Positions 45,991-51,090 of a DNA stretch of 64,000 bases are shown in pieces (positions within the stretch are counted from its first letter, which is position 1; each line of letters begins with the position of its first letter). The notes below the pieces were generated by a model, which saw nothing but the letters and a program-made list of their open reading frames with translations, searched no databases and was not told the DNA's origin. Location: assembly GCF_009792355.1 (NCBI RefSeq), contig NZ_CP047045.1:3002501-3066500 (forward strand), in the 5' to 3' direction. The translations under genes and the position numbers were made by a program. This DNA comes from Terricaulis silvestris (GTDB lineage Bacteria > Pseudomonadota > Alphaproteobacteria > Caulobacterales > Aquidulcibacteraceae).

Positions 45991-46881
45991 ATGGACTGGG
46001 ACAAACTCAAAACTTTTCACTTCGCCGCCGAGACCGGCAGCCTGACGGCGGCGGCGGAGAAACTTGGCGTCAGCCAGTCCTCAGTGAGCCGCCAGATTGC
46101 TGCGCTGGAAAACGACATGGGCGTGCCGCTGTTCCAGCGTCACGCGCGCGGGCTGCTGCTGACCGGCCCCGGCATGGCGCTCCGGGAGTTCACGCGGGAA
46201 ATGGCCGGCGCCGCGATCATCGCCGAATCGACGTTGAAAGACGCACGCGAAAAGGTCATCGGCGACCTGACGGTGACGGCGCCCGTTGCATTTGGCTCGA
46301 CTTGGCTGGCGCCGCGCCTCGGCAACTTCGCCGACACCTATCCCGAGACGCGGCTCAAGATCATGCTCGACGACCGCGAGTACGATCTCTTGAAGCTTGA
46401 AGCCGAGTGCGCAATCCGCCTCTGGGCCGCGACGCACGCCGACCTGATCCAGCGCAAGCTCCTGGAAGTGCACGTCAGCCTCTACGCGTCGGCGAGCTAC
46501 CTGCAACGCCACGGCACGCCGAAGAAGGTCGAGGACCTCGATCATCACCGCATCATCGCCTACCAGGCCGGCGTGCCGACGCCGATGCGCGAACTGGATT
46601 GGGCGCAACGCGCCGGCCGCGAAGATGCCAAGCCGCGTACGCCGCTTCTGGAGATCAACAACGTTTACGGCATGCTGCGCGCGGTGGAGTCCGGCTTCGG
46701 CATCGCCAGCGTGCCCGACTACATGGCGCGCGAAAATCCGACGCTGGTGAAAGTGCTGCCCGACTTGCCGGGTCCGAGCTTCGAAGTCTATTTCATCTAC
46801 CCAAGCGACCTGAAGCGCTCCAAGCGCATCGCGGCTTTCCGGCAGTTCCTGATCGATCAGGCGGCGGGCTGGGAGGCGTGA
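45991..46881 (+). CDS. LysR-family transcriptional regulator
   Basis: 296 residues from the ATG at 45991. N-terminal winged HTH WDKLKTFHFAAETGSLTAAAEKLGVSQSSVSRQIAALE, then the periplasmic-binding-protein-like effector domain (LTVTAPVAFGSTWLAPRL; AECAIRLWAATHADL; VESGFGIASVPDYMA). The effector is unknown. Downstream, two bases after the stop, begins the first heptamer array. Confidence 0.92.
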   Translation: MDWDKLKTFHFAAETGSLTAAAEKLGVSQSSVSRQIAALENDMGVPLFQRHARGLLLTGPGMALREFTREMAGAAIIAESTLKDAREKVIGDLTVTAPVAFGSTWLAPRLGNFADTYPETRLKIMLDDREYDLLKLEAECAIRLWAATHADLIQRKLLEVHVSLYASASYLQRHGTPKKVEDLDHHRIIAYQAGVPTPMRELDWAQRAGREDAKPRTPLLEINNVYGMLRAVESGFGIASVPDYMARENPTLVKVLPDLPGPSFEVYFIYPSDLKRSKRIAAFRQFLIDQAAGWEA

Positions 46882-46882
46882 C

Positions 46883-47320
46883 AGGTGTCAGGTATCGGGT
46901 GTCAGGTATCACTTTAGCTTGGCAATGAGGCCGTTGAGCATCTTCGCTATCTCAACGTACTGCCCGCTGAGCTTCTGAAATTGATCCTCGGTGAGATATC
47001 CCAAATCCTTGGCGAATCTGCACCACAACGCGGATTCATCGGTGCTTCCGAGAGCGATCAACGCGAACCTTCTGAATTCAGCCGTTGAGCCCTGTTGTCT
47101 TGCTCGCCCTTCCGCCAAGTTGGCGCAAATGGACTTGCTCGAACGGCGGAGTTGGCTAGCCAACTCATACTGCTCGTGCTTCGGAAACGTTTGCGCAATT
47201 CGGTGGATTTCGAGCGCTGCGGCGTAGGCCTTCTGGAACACGATCATGTCCCAAACCGAAGTCGCTACGCCGACGCGCCCGTCAGCCATTCTGACACCTG
47301 ATACCCGGCACCTGACACCT
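46883..47320. mobile_element. Four-helix-bundle element 1 (inverted heptamer arrays around one gene)
   Basis: Four tandem 7-mers of form RGGTRTC stand at 46883-46910; four more in inverted orientation (RGGTRYC) stand at 47293-47320. The four-helix-bundle gene fills the space: its stop is in the left array and its ATG is 4 bases from the right array. The element is 438 bases long and lies between the convergent stops of lysR and the zinc peptidase gene. No transposase, recombinase or reverse transcriptase is present, so any movement would need help from elsewhere. Confidence 0.65.
46909..47289 (-). CDS. Four-helix-bundle protein (S23/IVS-encoded family), copy 1
   Basis: 126 residues: four amphipathic helices with the family signature. 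Helix 1 WDMIVFQKAYAAALEIHRIAQTFP; then YELASQLRRSSKSICANLAEGRAR; FRRFALIALGSTDESALWCRFAKDLGYL; ending QYVEIAKMLNGLIAKLK. Related proteins are encoded by intervening sequences in bacterial 23S rRNA genes and resemble the Avd accessory protein of diversity-generating retroelements. The stop codon lies inside the left heptamer array, so gene and repeats belong together. Confidence 0.86.
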   Translation of the reverse strand: MADGRVGVATSVWDMIVFQKAYAAALEIHRIAQTFPKHEQYELASQLRRSSKSICANLAEGRARQQGSTAEFRRFALIALGSTDESALWCRFAKDLGYLTEDQFQKLSGQYVEIAKMLNGLIAKLK

Positions 47321-47322
47321 AC

Positions 47323-48228
47323 TCAGAGCTGAGCTTGGCTCACCGCGAACGTATCGCACTGGCGCGCATCGCCGCTATCAAACCCGCGCCGGAACCAGCG
47401 CATGCGCTGCGCGCTCGTGCCGTGCGTGTACTGGCCAGCGTTGGCGCCCAGCGTATCGTCGCCGATCGCGTGCGCGGCGTTCAGTGCTTCACGCAGATCG
47501 GCTTCGTCGATCGCCAAAGATGCGCGCGCGGTATGGCCCCACACCCCGGCAAGGCAATCGGCCTGTAGTTCGACACGCACGGACGTCTGATTCTGGTTTT
47601 CACCGGAAACCGAGCGCTGCGTCGCGCCGATCAAATTCTGCACGTGGTGACCGACTTCGTGCGCGATCACGTAAGCCTGCGCGAAATCCCCCGGCGCGTT
47701 TAGCCGGCTCTGCATGACCTGATAGAAGCTCGGATCAATGTAGAGATTGGTGTCGGCCGGGCAGTAGAACGGTCCGACGTCCGCAGTCGCGTTGCCGCAA
47801 CCGGTGGCGACGCCGCCCGAGAACACTACGAGCGTCGGCGCGCGATAGCTGCCGGCCTGCACGCTATAGTTCGGCAGCCGGTTCTGGCTAAACTGCGCGC
47901 TCCACACATCTTCGGTTGAGCCCAGCACCGCGCGCGAGAAATCGCAGGCTTGCGCTTCAGCTTCGCACACGCTGCCTTCGCCGCTGGTGGACTGGCTTTG
48001 GCCCGGCACGCCGCCAAGCAGTGCGCCGAAGACCATTTCCTTGATGTTGGCGGGCGCGAAGAACCAAATGCCCGCGAGCACGAGGCCCACGATCAGGATG
48101 CCGCGCAGGCCGATCCGGCGCAGGATCGCGAACAACGCGCCCGCCGCCAGGCCGCCGCCGACTGCACCGCCACCGCCACGGCCGCGATCTTCGAAATTGT
48201 CGGAACGGCGCTGGTTGTCTGTGCGCAT
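47323..48228 (-). CDS. Neutral zinc metallopeptidase (YpfJ family)
   Basis: 301 residues: polar Gly-rich N-terminus, one transmembrane helix (about 43-58, GILIVGLVLAGIWFFAPA), then the peptidase domain with HEVGHHVQNL (HExxH-type zinc site near residue 190), FYCPADTNLYIDPSFY and LQADCLAGVWGHTA. The family is membrane-anchored with the catalytic part probably periplasmic. The stop lies 3 bases past the right heptamer array of element 1. Confidence 0.92.
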   Translation of the reverse strand: MRTDNQRRSDNFEDRGRGGGGAVGGGLAAGALFAILRRIGLRGILIVGLVLAGIWFFAPANIKEMVFGALLGGVPGQSQSTSGEGSVCEAEAQACDFSRAVLGSTEDVWSAQFSQNRLPNYSVQAGSYRAPTLVVFSGGVATGCGNATADVGPFYCPADTNLYIDPSFYQVMQSRLNAPGDFAQAYVIAHEVGHHVQNLIGATQRSVSGENQNQTSVRVELQADCLAGVWGHTARASLAIDEADLREALNAAHAIGDDTLGANAGQYTHGTSAQRMRWFRRGFDSGDARQCDTFAVSQAQL

Positions 48229-48257
48229 CTGGCGTCTCCCTGGGGTCGGAGGCGACC

Positions 48258-49508
48258 TTAGCTCGCCCCGCCTGCCTCGGGCAACGCGGAAGCGGGCTGA
48301 CGGGCGCCAACGCGAAGAAAGATGATCAGCGACAGGATGGCCAATCCACCGGAAAGCAGGAACACCGCGCCTGGAAAGTAGATTTGCGCGTCGGCGCGCG
48401 AGAAATGGCCGAGCGTTTGCGTCAGCAGCAACGGCCCGATGATGGTCGTGAGGCTCATCATGCTGGCGACGCCGCCCTGTAGCTCACCCTGTTGATCCGG
48501 CGGCGCCTGCTTCGACATTATCGCGTTCATCGCGGGATAGGCGAGCCCCTGCACCGCACCCGCAGCCAGAGCGATGTAAACCCACGACGTCGTCGTCGCG
48601 AACGCCAGCATCAGCATGCTCGCCGTGCCAGACATGACGCCGATGATCGCCGCGCGATATTCGCCGATCTTCGGCACCACGCGGCCAACCAAATAGCCCT
48701 GCGTGAAAATCATGCACACGCCGACGAACCCGAGCGACAACCCGATCTCGAACTCCGACCAGTTGAGATTGATCTTGGCAAAGAACGACCACGTGCTCGG
48801 GTAAACCTGGTGCGCCAGCTGCCATAGGAACACCGCGCCCGCGATGGCGAGGATCGCCGGGAATTTGCTAAATGCTGTGAACGTGCCGATCACATTGGCG
48901 CGCTTCCAATCAAAGGCGCGCCGCCGCTCCTTCGGCAAACTCTCCGGCAGCACAAACAGGCCGTATAAGAAGTTGAGCGCGCCCAGCGCCGCCGCCGCGA
49001 AGAATGGAGCACGTGGGCCAAGCTCGCCCAGGAAGCCGCCAATGGTCGGGCCGACGATGAAACCGATCCCAAACGCCGCGCCGATCAAGCCGAAGCTCTG
49101 CGCACGCTTCTCCGGCGGCGTGACGTCGGCGATGTAGGCCATCGACGGCGAGTACACGGCGCCCGCAATGCCCGCGATGGCGCGCCCGATGAACAGCAAC
49201 GCCACCGTCGGCGCGAAACCCATCAGCATGTAATCGAGCGCGAACGCGGCCAGCGAAAACAGCAATACCGGCCTGCGTCCGAACCGATCGCTGAGATTGC
49301 CCAGGATCGGACCGCACACGAATTGCAGCACCGCGTATGTCGTTAAGAGGAAGCCGGCGAGGATCGTCACATCCGAAAGCGACTGCCCGGTGATCTCCAC
49401 CAACAGCTGCGGCATCACCGGCATGACGATGCCGAACCCGATCGTGTCGATCAGGATGGTGAGAAAGATAAACGCTAAGGCGTGCTTGCTTGGTCCGCGC
49501 GACATCAT
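48258..49508 (-). CDS. Major facilitator superfamily transporter, tetracycline-efflux-like (TCR/TetA family)
   Basis: 416 residues from the ATG at 49508 (49505 is a second ATG); GGAG lies 5-8 bases upstream. Twelve TM segments. Motif A GNLSDRFGRRPVLLFS in the TM2-TM3 loop and GIAGAVYSPSMAYIADVTPPEKRAQSFGL match the TetA/TCR proton-drug antiporters. The exported compound is unknown. Element 2 inserts 12 bases upstream of the start, so its promoter lies inside the element or upstream. Confidence 0.9.
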   Translation of the reverse strand: MMSRGPSKHALAFIFLTILIDTIGFGIVMPVMPQLLVEITGQSLSDVTILAGFLLTTYAVLQFVCGPILGNLSDRFGRRPVLLFSLAAFALDYMLMGFAPTVALLFIGRAIAGIAGAVYSPSMAYIADVTPPEKRAQSFGLIGAAFGIGFIVGPTIGGFLGELGPRAPFFAAAALGALNFLYGLFVLPESLPKERRRAFDWKRANVIGTFTAFSKFPAILAIAGAVFLWQLAHQVYPSTWSFFAKINLNWSEFEIGLSLGFVGVCMIFTQGYLVGRVVPKIGEYRAAIIGVMSGTASMLMLAFATTTSWVYIALAAGAVQGLAYPAMNAIMSKQAPPDQQGELQGGVASMMSLTTIIGPLLLTQTLGHFSRADAQIYFPGAVFLLSGGLAILSLIIFLRVGARQPASALPEAGGAS

Positions 49509-49520
49509 TCGGCTCCGCCC

Positions 49521-50025
49521 GGCAGTCGGCAATCGGCAATCGGCAATCGCTACTCCTGAAGTGACTTGATAAGGCCACGGAGCATCTTTCCAACGGTCTC
49601 GGACTGTTCCAGCACCTTCGCGCCATCAACGCCGAGGACACGCTCCGAAAGCATCACGTGAGTTTCAAGCTCTTTGCATGAACCCTGGGCGATCCGCAAA
49701 AACTGAATATACGAGCCTGTGCTTTCTCGCCCGTATCCCTCCGCGATGTTTGCCGCGATCGAAACCGAGGCACGGCGCGTTTGTGAGGTTAATCCATACA
49801 GCTCGTCGCGGGGAAAATCTCTGGTGAGACCATAACACATCTCCGCGAGCGTCATGGCCTCACGCCAAACTCGTAAGTCGCGATATGCTTGCAAGACCTC
49901 CATACCATCCCCCTGATAGACTACTGATCTGACTCACGAACCATGCCAGCACTAGGCGTGCGGTTGCTTTCGTATCGCACATCGGCTTGTTTTTCGCGAT
50001 TGCCGACTGCCGATTGCCGACTGCC
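49521..50025. mobile_element. Four-helix-bundle element 2 (inverted heptamer arrays)
   Basis: Four tandem 7-mers of form GGCARTC (49521-49548) are matched in inverted orientation at 49998-50025. The second four-helix-bundle gene starts its stop codon 2 bases past the left array. Its start is 94 bases from the right array. Total length is 505 bases. The heptamer differs from element 1 (RGGTRTC), but both fit RGSWRTC in the same phase, and both have four units per side. The right array is translated in the 3' end of the radical SAM gene. Confidence 0.65.
49550..49903 (-). CDS. Four-helix-bundle protein (S23/IVS-encoded family), copy 2
   Basis: 117 residues with the same family layout as copy 1 but clearly diverged: YRDLRVWREAMTLAEMCYGLTRDFP; YGLTSQTRRASVSIAANIAEGYGR; YIQFLRIAQGSCKELETHVMLSERV; ending VGKMLRGLIKSLQE. 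The conserved S.AANIAEG.GR motif is present. It is co-directional with the radical SAM and MFS genes. The two copies are not recent duplicates, so they probably arrived separately. Confidence 0.87.
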   Translation of the reverse strand: MEVLQAYRDLRVWREAMTLAEMCYGLTRDFPRDELYGLTSQTRRASVSIAANIAEGYGRESTGSYIQFLRIAQGSCKELETHVMLSERVLGVDGAKVLEQSETVGKMLRGLIKSLQE

Positions 50026-51090
50026 GCCATCAAACAAATCTGGCTGCCCGTTCGTTTCGAGCGGCCGGCGGAATTGCGTGTGATCCAGCGCCAGGCGCGG
50101 CTTGTCCAAGCCCAAACGCCGTGACGCTTTCGCAAACCGATCGGCGATCAGCTGTGCGTACGGCCCTTCGCCTTTCTGTCGCTTGCCCCATTCGGGATCG
50201 TAATCCAGCCCGTTACGCATCCCGCGCACCAAAGTCATCACCCGCGTCTTGCGATCCGGGAAGTGCTTGCTCAGCCATTCGCGGAACAGATCCTTGATCT
50301 CCAGCGGCAGCCGCAACACCACATAGCCGGCCGACGTCGCGCCCGCCTTCGCGCATTCTTCCAGAATCGCTTCGATCTCCCGATCGTTGATCGCCGGCAC
50401 AATCGGCGCGACCATCACCGTCGTCGGCACACCGGCTTGCGCCAACATGCGTATCGTCTCGATGCGCCGGTGCGGCGCTGCCGCGCGCGGCTCCATCACG
50501 CGCGAAATACGACGCTCCAAAGTCGTGACCGAGATCGCCGCTTTCGCCAACCCGCGTTCCGCCAAACGCGCCAGAATATCGATGTCGCGCACCACGAGTT
50601 GGCTTTTGGTGATCAGCGCCACCGGGTGACGCCACCTCTCCATCACTTCAAGCAACGCGCGGGTGACGCCATATCCGCGCTCAATCGGCTGATAGATGTC
50701 GGTGACGCCGCCCAGCATGATGGTCTTCGGCTTGTAGCTCGGCTTGGAGAATTCCTTCTCCAACAACTCTGCCGCGTTCGCCTTCACGAACAGCTTGGTC
50801 TCGAAATCCAAGCCCGGCGACAAACCCACGTAGGCGTGGTTCGGCCGCGCGTAGCAATAGATGCAGCCGTGCTCGCAGCCCCGATACGGGTTGATCGACT
50901 GATCGAACGAGATGTCGGGGCTGGTGTTGGTGGAGATGATCGACTTCGCCAGCTCCGGCGTGACGATCGTCTCGAACGGCTGCAGCTCCTCCTCGGACCA
51001 GCCGTCATCGAAGGCTTCGCGGGCAAAGCGCTCGTACCGGCCGCTCGCATTGGTGCGCGCGCCCCTGCCGCTCAGAGGGTCCTTGGTCAT
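49921..51090 (-). CDS. PA0069-family radical SAM protein (SplB-like) with element-derived C-terminal tail
   Basis: 389 residues. The radical SAM cluster motif is Cys72/76/79 in GCEHGCIYCY; SINPYRGCEHGC is typical of the PA0069 family, a spore-photolyase-like group. ITKSQLVVRDIDIL and MVAPIVPAINDREI are also family segments. The usual C-terminus, ending in -DLF, is at about residue 353; about 36 more residues (starting DGGSRQSAVGNREK) are read through the right array of element 2. The natural stop therefore seems to have been lost by insertion. Confidence 0.9.
   Translation of the reverse strand: MTKDPLSGRGARTNASGRYERFAREAFDDGWSEEELQPFETIVTPELAKSIISTNTSPDISFDQSINPYRGCEHGCIYCYARPNHAYVGLSPGLDFETKLFVKANAAELLEKEFSKPSYKPKTIMLGGVTDIYQPIERGYGVTRALLEVMERWRHPVALITKSQLVVRDIDILARLAERGLAKAAISVTTLERRISRVMEPRAAAPHRRIETIRMLAQAGVPTTVMVAPIVPAINDREIEAILEECAKAGATSAGYVVLRLPLEIKDLFREWLSKHFPDRKTRVMTLVRGMRNGLDYDPEWGKRQKGEGPYAQLIADRFAKASRRLGLDKPRLALDHTQFRRPLETNGQPDLFDGGSRQSAVGNREKQADVRYESNRTPSAGMVRESDQ

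Follow-up and report, generated by a model that had tools for sequence, protein, structure and literature searches.

Two repeat-framed IVP genes in the window

The window, i.e. the whole stretch of 64 kb that was analysed, carries two elements, 2.2 kb apart, in each of which a PF05635 gene, coding for a 23S rRNA intervening-sequence protein (IVP), is enclosed by tandem heptamers. The IVP gene of element 2 (49550..49903, minus strand) encodes a protein of 117 amino acids that matches the profiles PF05635, TIGR02436 and NF008911. Its 3' array (49521..49548, plus strand) reads GGCAGTC GGCAATC GGCAATC GGCAATC, and its 5' array (49998..50025) consists of four GGCARTC units on the minus strand. A repeat search returned the two sides as arms of 31 nt (49520-49550 and 49996-50026) that are 97% complementary and 445 nt apart. 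Upstream of the IVP gene, the frame of a radical SAM gene (49921..51090, minus strand) now crosses the 5' array (...DLFDGGSRQSAVGNR...). Downstream, an MFS transporter gene on the same strand (48258..49532, minus) is listed from a TTG at 49532, and an alternative ATG at 49505-49507 would put its start outside the array. These neighbour names, like LysR, nuo, acc, mraY and murD below, are our own assignments, made by reading the sequences. Element 2 is confirmed as a PF05635 gene framed by inverted four-unit heptamer arrays between two ordinary genes; coordinates, arms and the shuffles given below all agree with the earlier note, which had described GGCARTC heptamers, four per side and inverted on one of them, around a second gene of the family.

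Element 1 follows the same layout of array, gene and inverted array, again with four units per side as had been claimed, and its heptamer is RGGTRTC. Its IVP gene (46909..47289, minus strand; 126 amino acids, PF05635) lies between a 3' array (46883..46910, plus strand; AGGTGTC AGGTATC GGGTGTC AGGTATC) and a 5' array (47293..47320, minus strand; AGGTGTC AGGTGCC GGGTATC AGGTGTC when read on that strand), and the units begin one base past the stop codon of a LysR gene that ends at 46881. The left array had been said to touch the stop codon in both elements. In element 1 the units indeed overlap the IVP stop (46909-46911), whereas in element 2 one base separates them from it (49550-49552, minus strand). 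When RGSNRTC was sought in triplicate with at most one mismatch, the 64-kb window gave 8 matches, all within the two elements, whereas 100 shuffles averaged 0.16 and never reached 8.

The two window proteins match PF05635 with E values of 4.3e-32 and 9.8e-34 (110.9 and 116.2 bits, cut-off 33.8) and TIGR02436 with 109.9 and 117.8 bits (curated cut-off 24). A sequence search for solved structures related to the element 2 protein yielded 2gsc alone (XCC0516; E 2e-22), and the solved Xanthomonas relative is reported as a homopentamer (PMC4990558). The same source describes S23p/IVP as having no known function. Some likeness to Avd of diversity-generating retroelements exists, as the element 1 protein weakly matches the Avd and bAvd models, but its 37.4 bits against NF033474 fall below the cut-off of 80; for element 2 no match to this model was listed at E 0.001. 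In its predicted fold, the element 2 transcript forms a hairpin whose closing stem consists of the 31-nt arms (-230.4 kcal/mol; z -6.19 against 100 shuffles), and the region 46500-50500 gave no Rfam match at the gathering score.

The array plan across bacteria

IVP loci were gathered among relatives, where 21 of 61 genomes were positive, and in a phylum sample (46 of 299 genomes positive), part of the rows being read as loci in both cases. Genome contigs contributed the best 80 of at least 574 confirmed places, a sample that favours relatives of the window protein, and 34 viral contigs and 2 of 28 plasmid records were added. These 28 were the matches of the element 2 protein among 72,556 plasmid records at E 1e-5; a search of 50,697 phage records with the same query at E 1e-3 was negative. 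The resulting set comprises 194 loci, all containing the gene, with 183 distinct proteins and 172 loci with both flanks.

Strong arrays, defined as period-7 runs scoring at least 9 within 250 nt of the IVP gene, occur on the left in 106 loci, on the right in 111 and on both sides in 82 of the 172. In the same scan the other periods from 4 to 15, with the exception of 14, were found at no more than 8 loci on one side and 4 on both; control windows 1.1-1.4 kb away contained period 7 in 31, period 6 in 12 and period 8 in 2 of 498 cases. A softer score detected arrays on both sides of 109 of 175 loci, on either side of 154 and on neither of 21. The last figure depends on the threshold and counts against recognition of the repeats by the protein; in at least one of these 21 loci, L092, degraded heptamers are visible by eye. 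Left and right arrays of one element resemble each other in inverted orientation (similarity 0.830, compared with 0.425 in direct orientation, 0.528 between elements and a maximum of 0.561 in 2000 permutations), and the own partner array ranked best of 109 in 62 elements. For terminal inverted repeats, 150 mismatched pairs served as the reference; 102 of 182 loci lie above its 99th percentile, and the median length is 32. In the 109 elements the arrays lie at a median of 4 nt past the stop codon and 30 nt ahead of the domain start, and the median number of units is 4.4 on either side. The arrays are thus not placed at random relative to the gene, and the repeat-framed IVP plan is widespread, extending over many phyla.

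The pattern RGSWRTC, proposed as common to both elements, does fit the two in the window, but it is only one among many heptamers of such elements. When 135 elements were set in register, a single G proved nearly invariant (weighted 95%), preceded by A in 64%; the register holds 2.77 bits, compared with at most 2.33 in 40 column-shuffled sets. Another cognate heptamer type may be present in genome G289, which gave 9 matches to our reversed control pattern (CTAAGGG units) and whose IVP element has CTACGGG units.

No near-identical IVP gene copies without a shared flank were found, the highest DNA identity being 78.9%; L211 and L214 are 99.4% identical, with only the right flank shared by the rule used. 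Among IVP gene pairs we saw neither recent transposition nor a recent copy at a new site. A separate observation concerns two Calothrix brevissima NIES-22 plasmids (L081 and L082), which share a 3.6-kb block that is 97.5% alike. A gene of the phage integrase family directly precedes the S23/IVP gene there, and GGGTGTA-like arrays frame the IVP; an IVP element riding an integrase unit is possible.

Sites of the elements and gene-less arrays

Elsewhere, the family is known from genes inserted into bacterial 23S rRNA. In the Coxiella burnetii IVS three GACAGAT heptamers precede the ORF (PMC4990558), and for CPR bacteria, insertions with IVP ORFs have been described in both 16S and 23S rRNA (PMC11270868). 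The window elements resemble such an IVS in that an IVP/S23p ORF lies within complementary ends. One of our loci, L083, is situated within a bacterial LSU rRNA match (RF02541, 497-3795), whose strand it shares, and has GGRATCA-like units on both sides; its left array scores 5.5, which is under the softer threshold, and the locus is not among the 109 elements. The window elements differ in being situated between protein genes, in their heptamers and in having dispersed gene-less relatives.

Many alphaproteobacterial elements share the nuoC/nuoD junction, NuoD being recognised in 21 of 22 loci, and further elements occupy nuoA/nuoB and nuoB/nuoC. A nuo query matched 80 of 80 genomes of one Rhizobium-like genus, of which 50 loci were mapped and 46 fitted the anchors. 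These comprise three element types and empty spacers near 82 nt. One place (L265/L291) has an IVP gene with an internal gap, and L276, L280 and L285 are remnants that keep one array only, i.e. some single arrays at nuoC/nuoD are leftovers of an element. A quick, poorly resolved tree requires 7 changes over 19 rows, and a single origin of the nuoC/nuoD elements is conceivable. At the site of element 2, MFS directly adjoins radical SAM in G023 and G024, the anchors being 76 and 96 nt apart, compared with 551 in the window; the short spacer of the sister species G023 contains no array. G014 and G026 appear alike, judged by coordinates only. Most of the spacer differs between empty and filled sites, so no target-site duplication can be read.

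Elements likely prefer the sense orientation with their neighbours, although two counts disagree. Using the longest open frame, 157 loci were mixed (++66, --36, +-25, -+30). Gene calling by amino-acid composition, which kept 71 of 183 loci at 39 sites, placed both neighbours on the IVP strand at 30 sites (++), the upstream one only at 5 (+-) and neither at 4 (--).

Dispersed heptamers have been described in Xanthomonas (GGGNATC) and Nostoc (GGGGAYT; both PMC4692102) and in Beggiatoaceae (TAACTGA; PMC4679880); two Xanthomonas genomes contain 70 and 75 pairs in convergent orientation (PMC4692102). They share the unit length of 7 with the IVP elements, but the excerpts of both papers name no IVP link; that of PMC4692102 describes the heptamers as generally without association to mobile elements and assigns no clear role to those of Xanthomonas and Nostoc. 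Triples of GGGAATC, the type published for Xanthomonas, were present in 3 of 398 sampled genomes (G210, G337 and G179). Two of these, G210 and G337, are also IVP-positive, the G210 match covering positions 1-64 of 106; G179 is absent from the IVP positives at E 1e-15 in the phylum sample. In both G210 and G337 the IVP gene is located between an AccB-like and an AccC-like gene. The units around it are of GGGAATC type in G210, and those in G337 read GGGATTC/GGGATTG, one base off the long arrays of that genome. One of the G337 arrays (L450, contig C1 from 326879) contains at least 98 GGGAATC units in unbroken succession.

The genome to which the window belongs has 3 IVP genes and 22 triple matches, compared with 1 for the reversed control pattern, and several of its arrays are gene-less convergent pairs, for example at 1138794, 1618098 and 2721811. 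Across the genus, 65 array loci (7 from this genome and 58 fetched) include 38 convergent pairs with loops of 0-59 nt, and the commonest array length is four units (35 of 76 arrays). Both flanks of the mraY/murD junction were read in 26 species, 9 of which have a compact pair there, with GGCARTC units in G000, G018, G021, G022 and G025 and GGCARTA/G units in G001, G003, G015 and G023. The loops between the arms are not alike, and the tree requires 8 changes. The filled G001 and the empty G011 are close sisters that differ in the whole spacer, suggesting either loss or an exchange through recombination in the flanks. In all nine filled cases an open frame ends in TGA over the murD ATG, and GGCARTC units are stop-free in every frame. 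By eye, array integrity at this site showed no clear relation to the presence of a cognate IVP. At the same site, L366 (G009) instead contains about 200 nt of unrelated inserted sequence, whose G-rich and C-rich segments appear to be mutually inverted.

Among 141 array loci, of which 10 are IVP loci and three places are present twice, we distinguished 25 site groups. At least six differ in type, namely mraY/murD and the groups of L308, L004, L327, L334 and L313; a seventh, that of L303, has mixed heptamer types. Arrays are more numerous in the 17 IVP-bearing genomes than in the 13 others (one-sided p 0.002). All 5 genomes with an AGGTRTC IVP also have AGGTRTC arrays at a distance from IVP genes, as against 7 of the 25 remaining genomes (p 0.006); neither comparison takes kinship into account. 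Two observations count against recognition by the protein: G018, G023 and G019 are rich in arrays (16, 12 and 11 triples) with no IVP match, and GGCARTC-type and GGCARTA/G/T-type elements coexist in G003 and G007. An apparent genome-wide purity of GGCARTC or GGCARTA/G/T arrays (9 of 13 by exact triples) was rejected on account of these last two genomes. In the window's own genome, two convergent GGCARTC arrays surround an apparent intrinsic terminator (L024, about 3125708-3125824), and the sequence between them may be host DNA.

Heptamer type, protein relatedness and recognition

According to the earlier note, protein and repeat appear to stay paired while both drift, and it proposed to compare heptamer type with protein relatedness. 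For 124 elements this comparison gave a Mantel r of 0.433, with a maximum of 0.132 in 999 permutations, and different-site pairs alone gave 0.381 (permutation maximum 0.145), which bears the claim out. Different-site pairs with at least 60% protein identity have a heptamer similarity of 0.721 (n=201) vs 0.502 for those below 50% (n=6204). The heptamer thus tracks the protein, and clearly so above about 50% protein identity. Among pairs below 50% identity r falls to 0.159 (permutation maximum 0.129), and below 40% the correlation is gone (0.048; maximum 0.182); both values count against recognition, as does the finding that none of the protein columns tracked the heptamer beyond permutation (best 0.165; 95th percentile of the maxima 0.197).

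Linked inheritance alone yields some correlation between heptamer and protein. At 50-70% protein identity, fourfold sites are 0.27-0.31 identical and thus near random, whereas heptamer similarity is 0.59-0.71; in the 0.6-0.7 bin the values are 0.31 and 0.71, with about 0.50 for unlike proteins. In 190 nuoC/nuoD pairs, heptamers correlate with IVP at 0.42 and with NuoD at 0.07, as illustrated by L065 and L073, in which NuoD is 98% identical, IVP 58% and heptamer similarity 0.57. Elements that share a genome have unlike heptamers (0.547, 17 pairs), and the host genome hardly influences the type. In the protein tree the GGCARTC protein of the window groups, with weak support, with L041 and L042 (GGCARTC, same genus) and with L106, a GGCAGTC element at nuoC/nuoD of a Rhizobiaceae genome. 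The protein of element 1 is placed, with strong support, in a group with L101, L053, L100 and L083, the last being the 23S rRNA element.

The functional link between protein and repeat that the earlier note suggested is indirectly supported, because the correlation extends over unrelated sites with little host effect, because heptamers remain alike where fourfold sites are near random, and because gene-less arrays match the type of the resident IVP. The shared mobilising enzyme suggested as one form of this link was not found, Y1 transposases (PF01797) being the only family sought, and the interpretation offered there is partly supported overall. We regard recognition of the heptamers by the IVP as the best single inference, because a pentamer is reported for the Xanthomonas protein and the arrays hold four to five units. 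The target of an IVP oligomer would be its own heptamer type, present as RNA, single-stranded DNA or duplex, with roughly one unit per subunit. Recognition might join both ends of the element or control the IVP's own message, and the protein may also act in trans on gene-less satellites. Protein and heptamer would drift as a matched pair, and the unit would persist at fixed sites through descent, loss and homologous exchange of flanks, rarely reaching new ones. Such a gene-plus-satellite system would function in the manner of RAYT genes and their associated REPs and REPINs, the IVP replacing the transposase, and to this reading as a whole, in which binding is deduced from sequence patterns, we give about an even chance.

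The comparison with RAYTs holds in that a gene lies within inverted cognate repeats, that gene-less doublets of matching type occur in the genome and that repeats exist also where the gene is missing (PMC3686654). It fails in that the framed gene is PF05635 and no Y1/HuH transposase, that tandem GGCARTC units take the place of a palindrome tagged with GT(A/G)G (PMC3686654) and that loops between the arms are not conserved. This likeness of layout to REPs around rayt genes and to REPIN doublets is also what speaks for a RAYT/IS200-type transposase of the host or resident in it that moves the arrays, with the IVP as a passenger. We consider this very improbable, as PF01797 has 0 matches in the window's own genome, array number shows no difference between the 16 of 30 genomes with the family and the 14 without it (p 0.54) and no recent copy at a new site was seen. 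Alternatively, the arms might matter merely as an RNA stem, pairing in the transcript to a long hairpin that RNase III can cut as in the 23S rRNA IVS, the heptamer not being recognised at all. The predicted closed fold of element 2, the sense orientation at 30 of 39 called sites and the cleavage of the Coxiella IVS by RNase III in vitro (PMC4990558) are in line with this. Mismatches between arms, however, are not biased towards G-U in the sense RNA (90 vs 113; 20 elements with more, 36 with fewer), the order of units agrees between the two arms more than shared type would predict in only a few elements (7 of 52 at p<=0.05, where 2.6 would be expected), and tracking of the protein by the heptamer between sites is left unexplained; we therefore think it unlikely that pairing is the whole explanation.

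Homogenisation of arrays by slippage or quasipalindrome copying requires no protein. Tandem slippage and hairpin-templated copying could homogenise units and arms, heptamer and gene then drifting jointly through linkage only. These processes can explain the joint change of both arms and are a live rival in this respect: both arms of gene-less elements switch type together at mraY/murD, in five species vs four, and differences of type were seen in a minimum of five other site groups. Combined with linked inheritance, they could be the source of part of the pattern. That recognition plays no role whatever appears quite unlikely to us, since arrays mostly stay at four to five units, the near-invariant G, often with A before it, recurs across elements, and gene-less AGGTRTC arrays accompany a resident AGGTRTC IVP.

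Beyond recognition within single elements, it is conceivable, though we hold it to be doubtful, that a two-part system extends over many phyla, in which a four-helix-bundle ring protein would read its own 7-base code with one unit per subunit and both would change together. The 23S rRNA IVS, the nuo and acc inserts and the Xanthomonas-type heptamers would then all belong to it, with the gene-less array pairs as satellites. TRAP is an example of a ring protein that binds repeats. In titles and beginnings of abstracts, which covered few subscription papers or preprints, none of the matches listed tied an IVP or four-helix-bundle gene outside rRNA to heptamer arrays. A matched protein-repeat pair outside rRNA and across phyla makes both the function of IVP and the role of dispersed heptamers testable. 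The test system is small, with a protein of 117 residues and an array of 31 nt, and many natural variants are available for studying joint change of a repeat-reading protein and its repeat.

Two single elements, L329 (G020) and L309 (G013), mix AGGTRTC with GGCAATC or AGCAATC units and were perhaps caught midway through a change of type.
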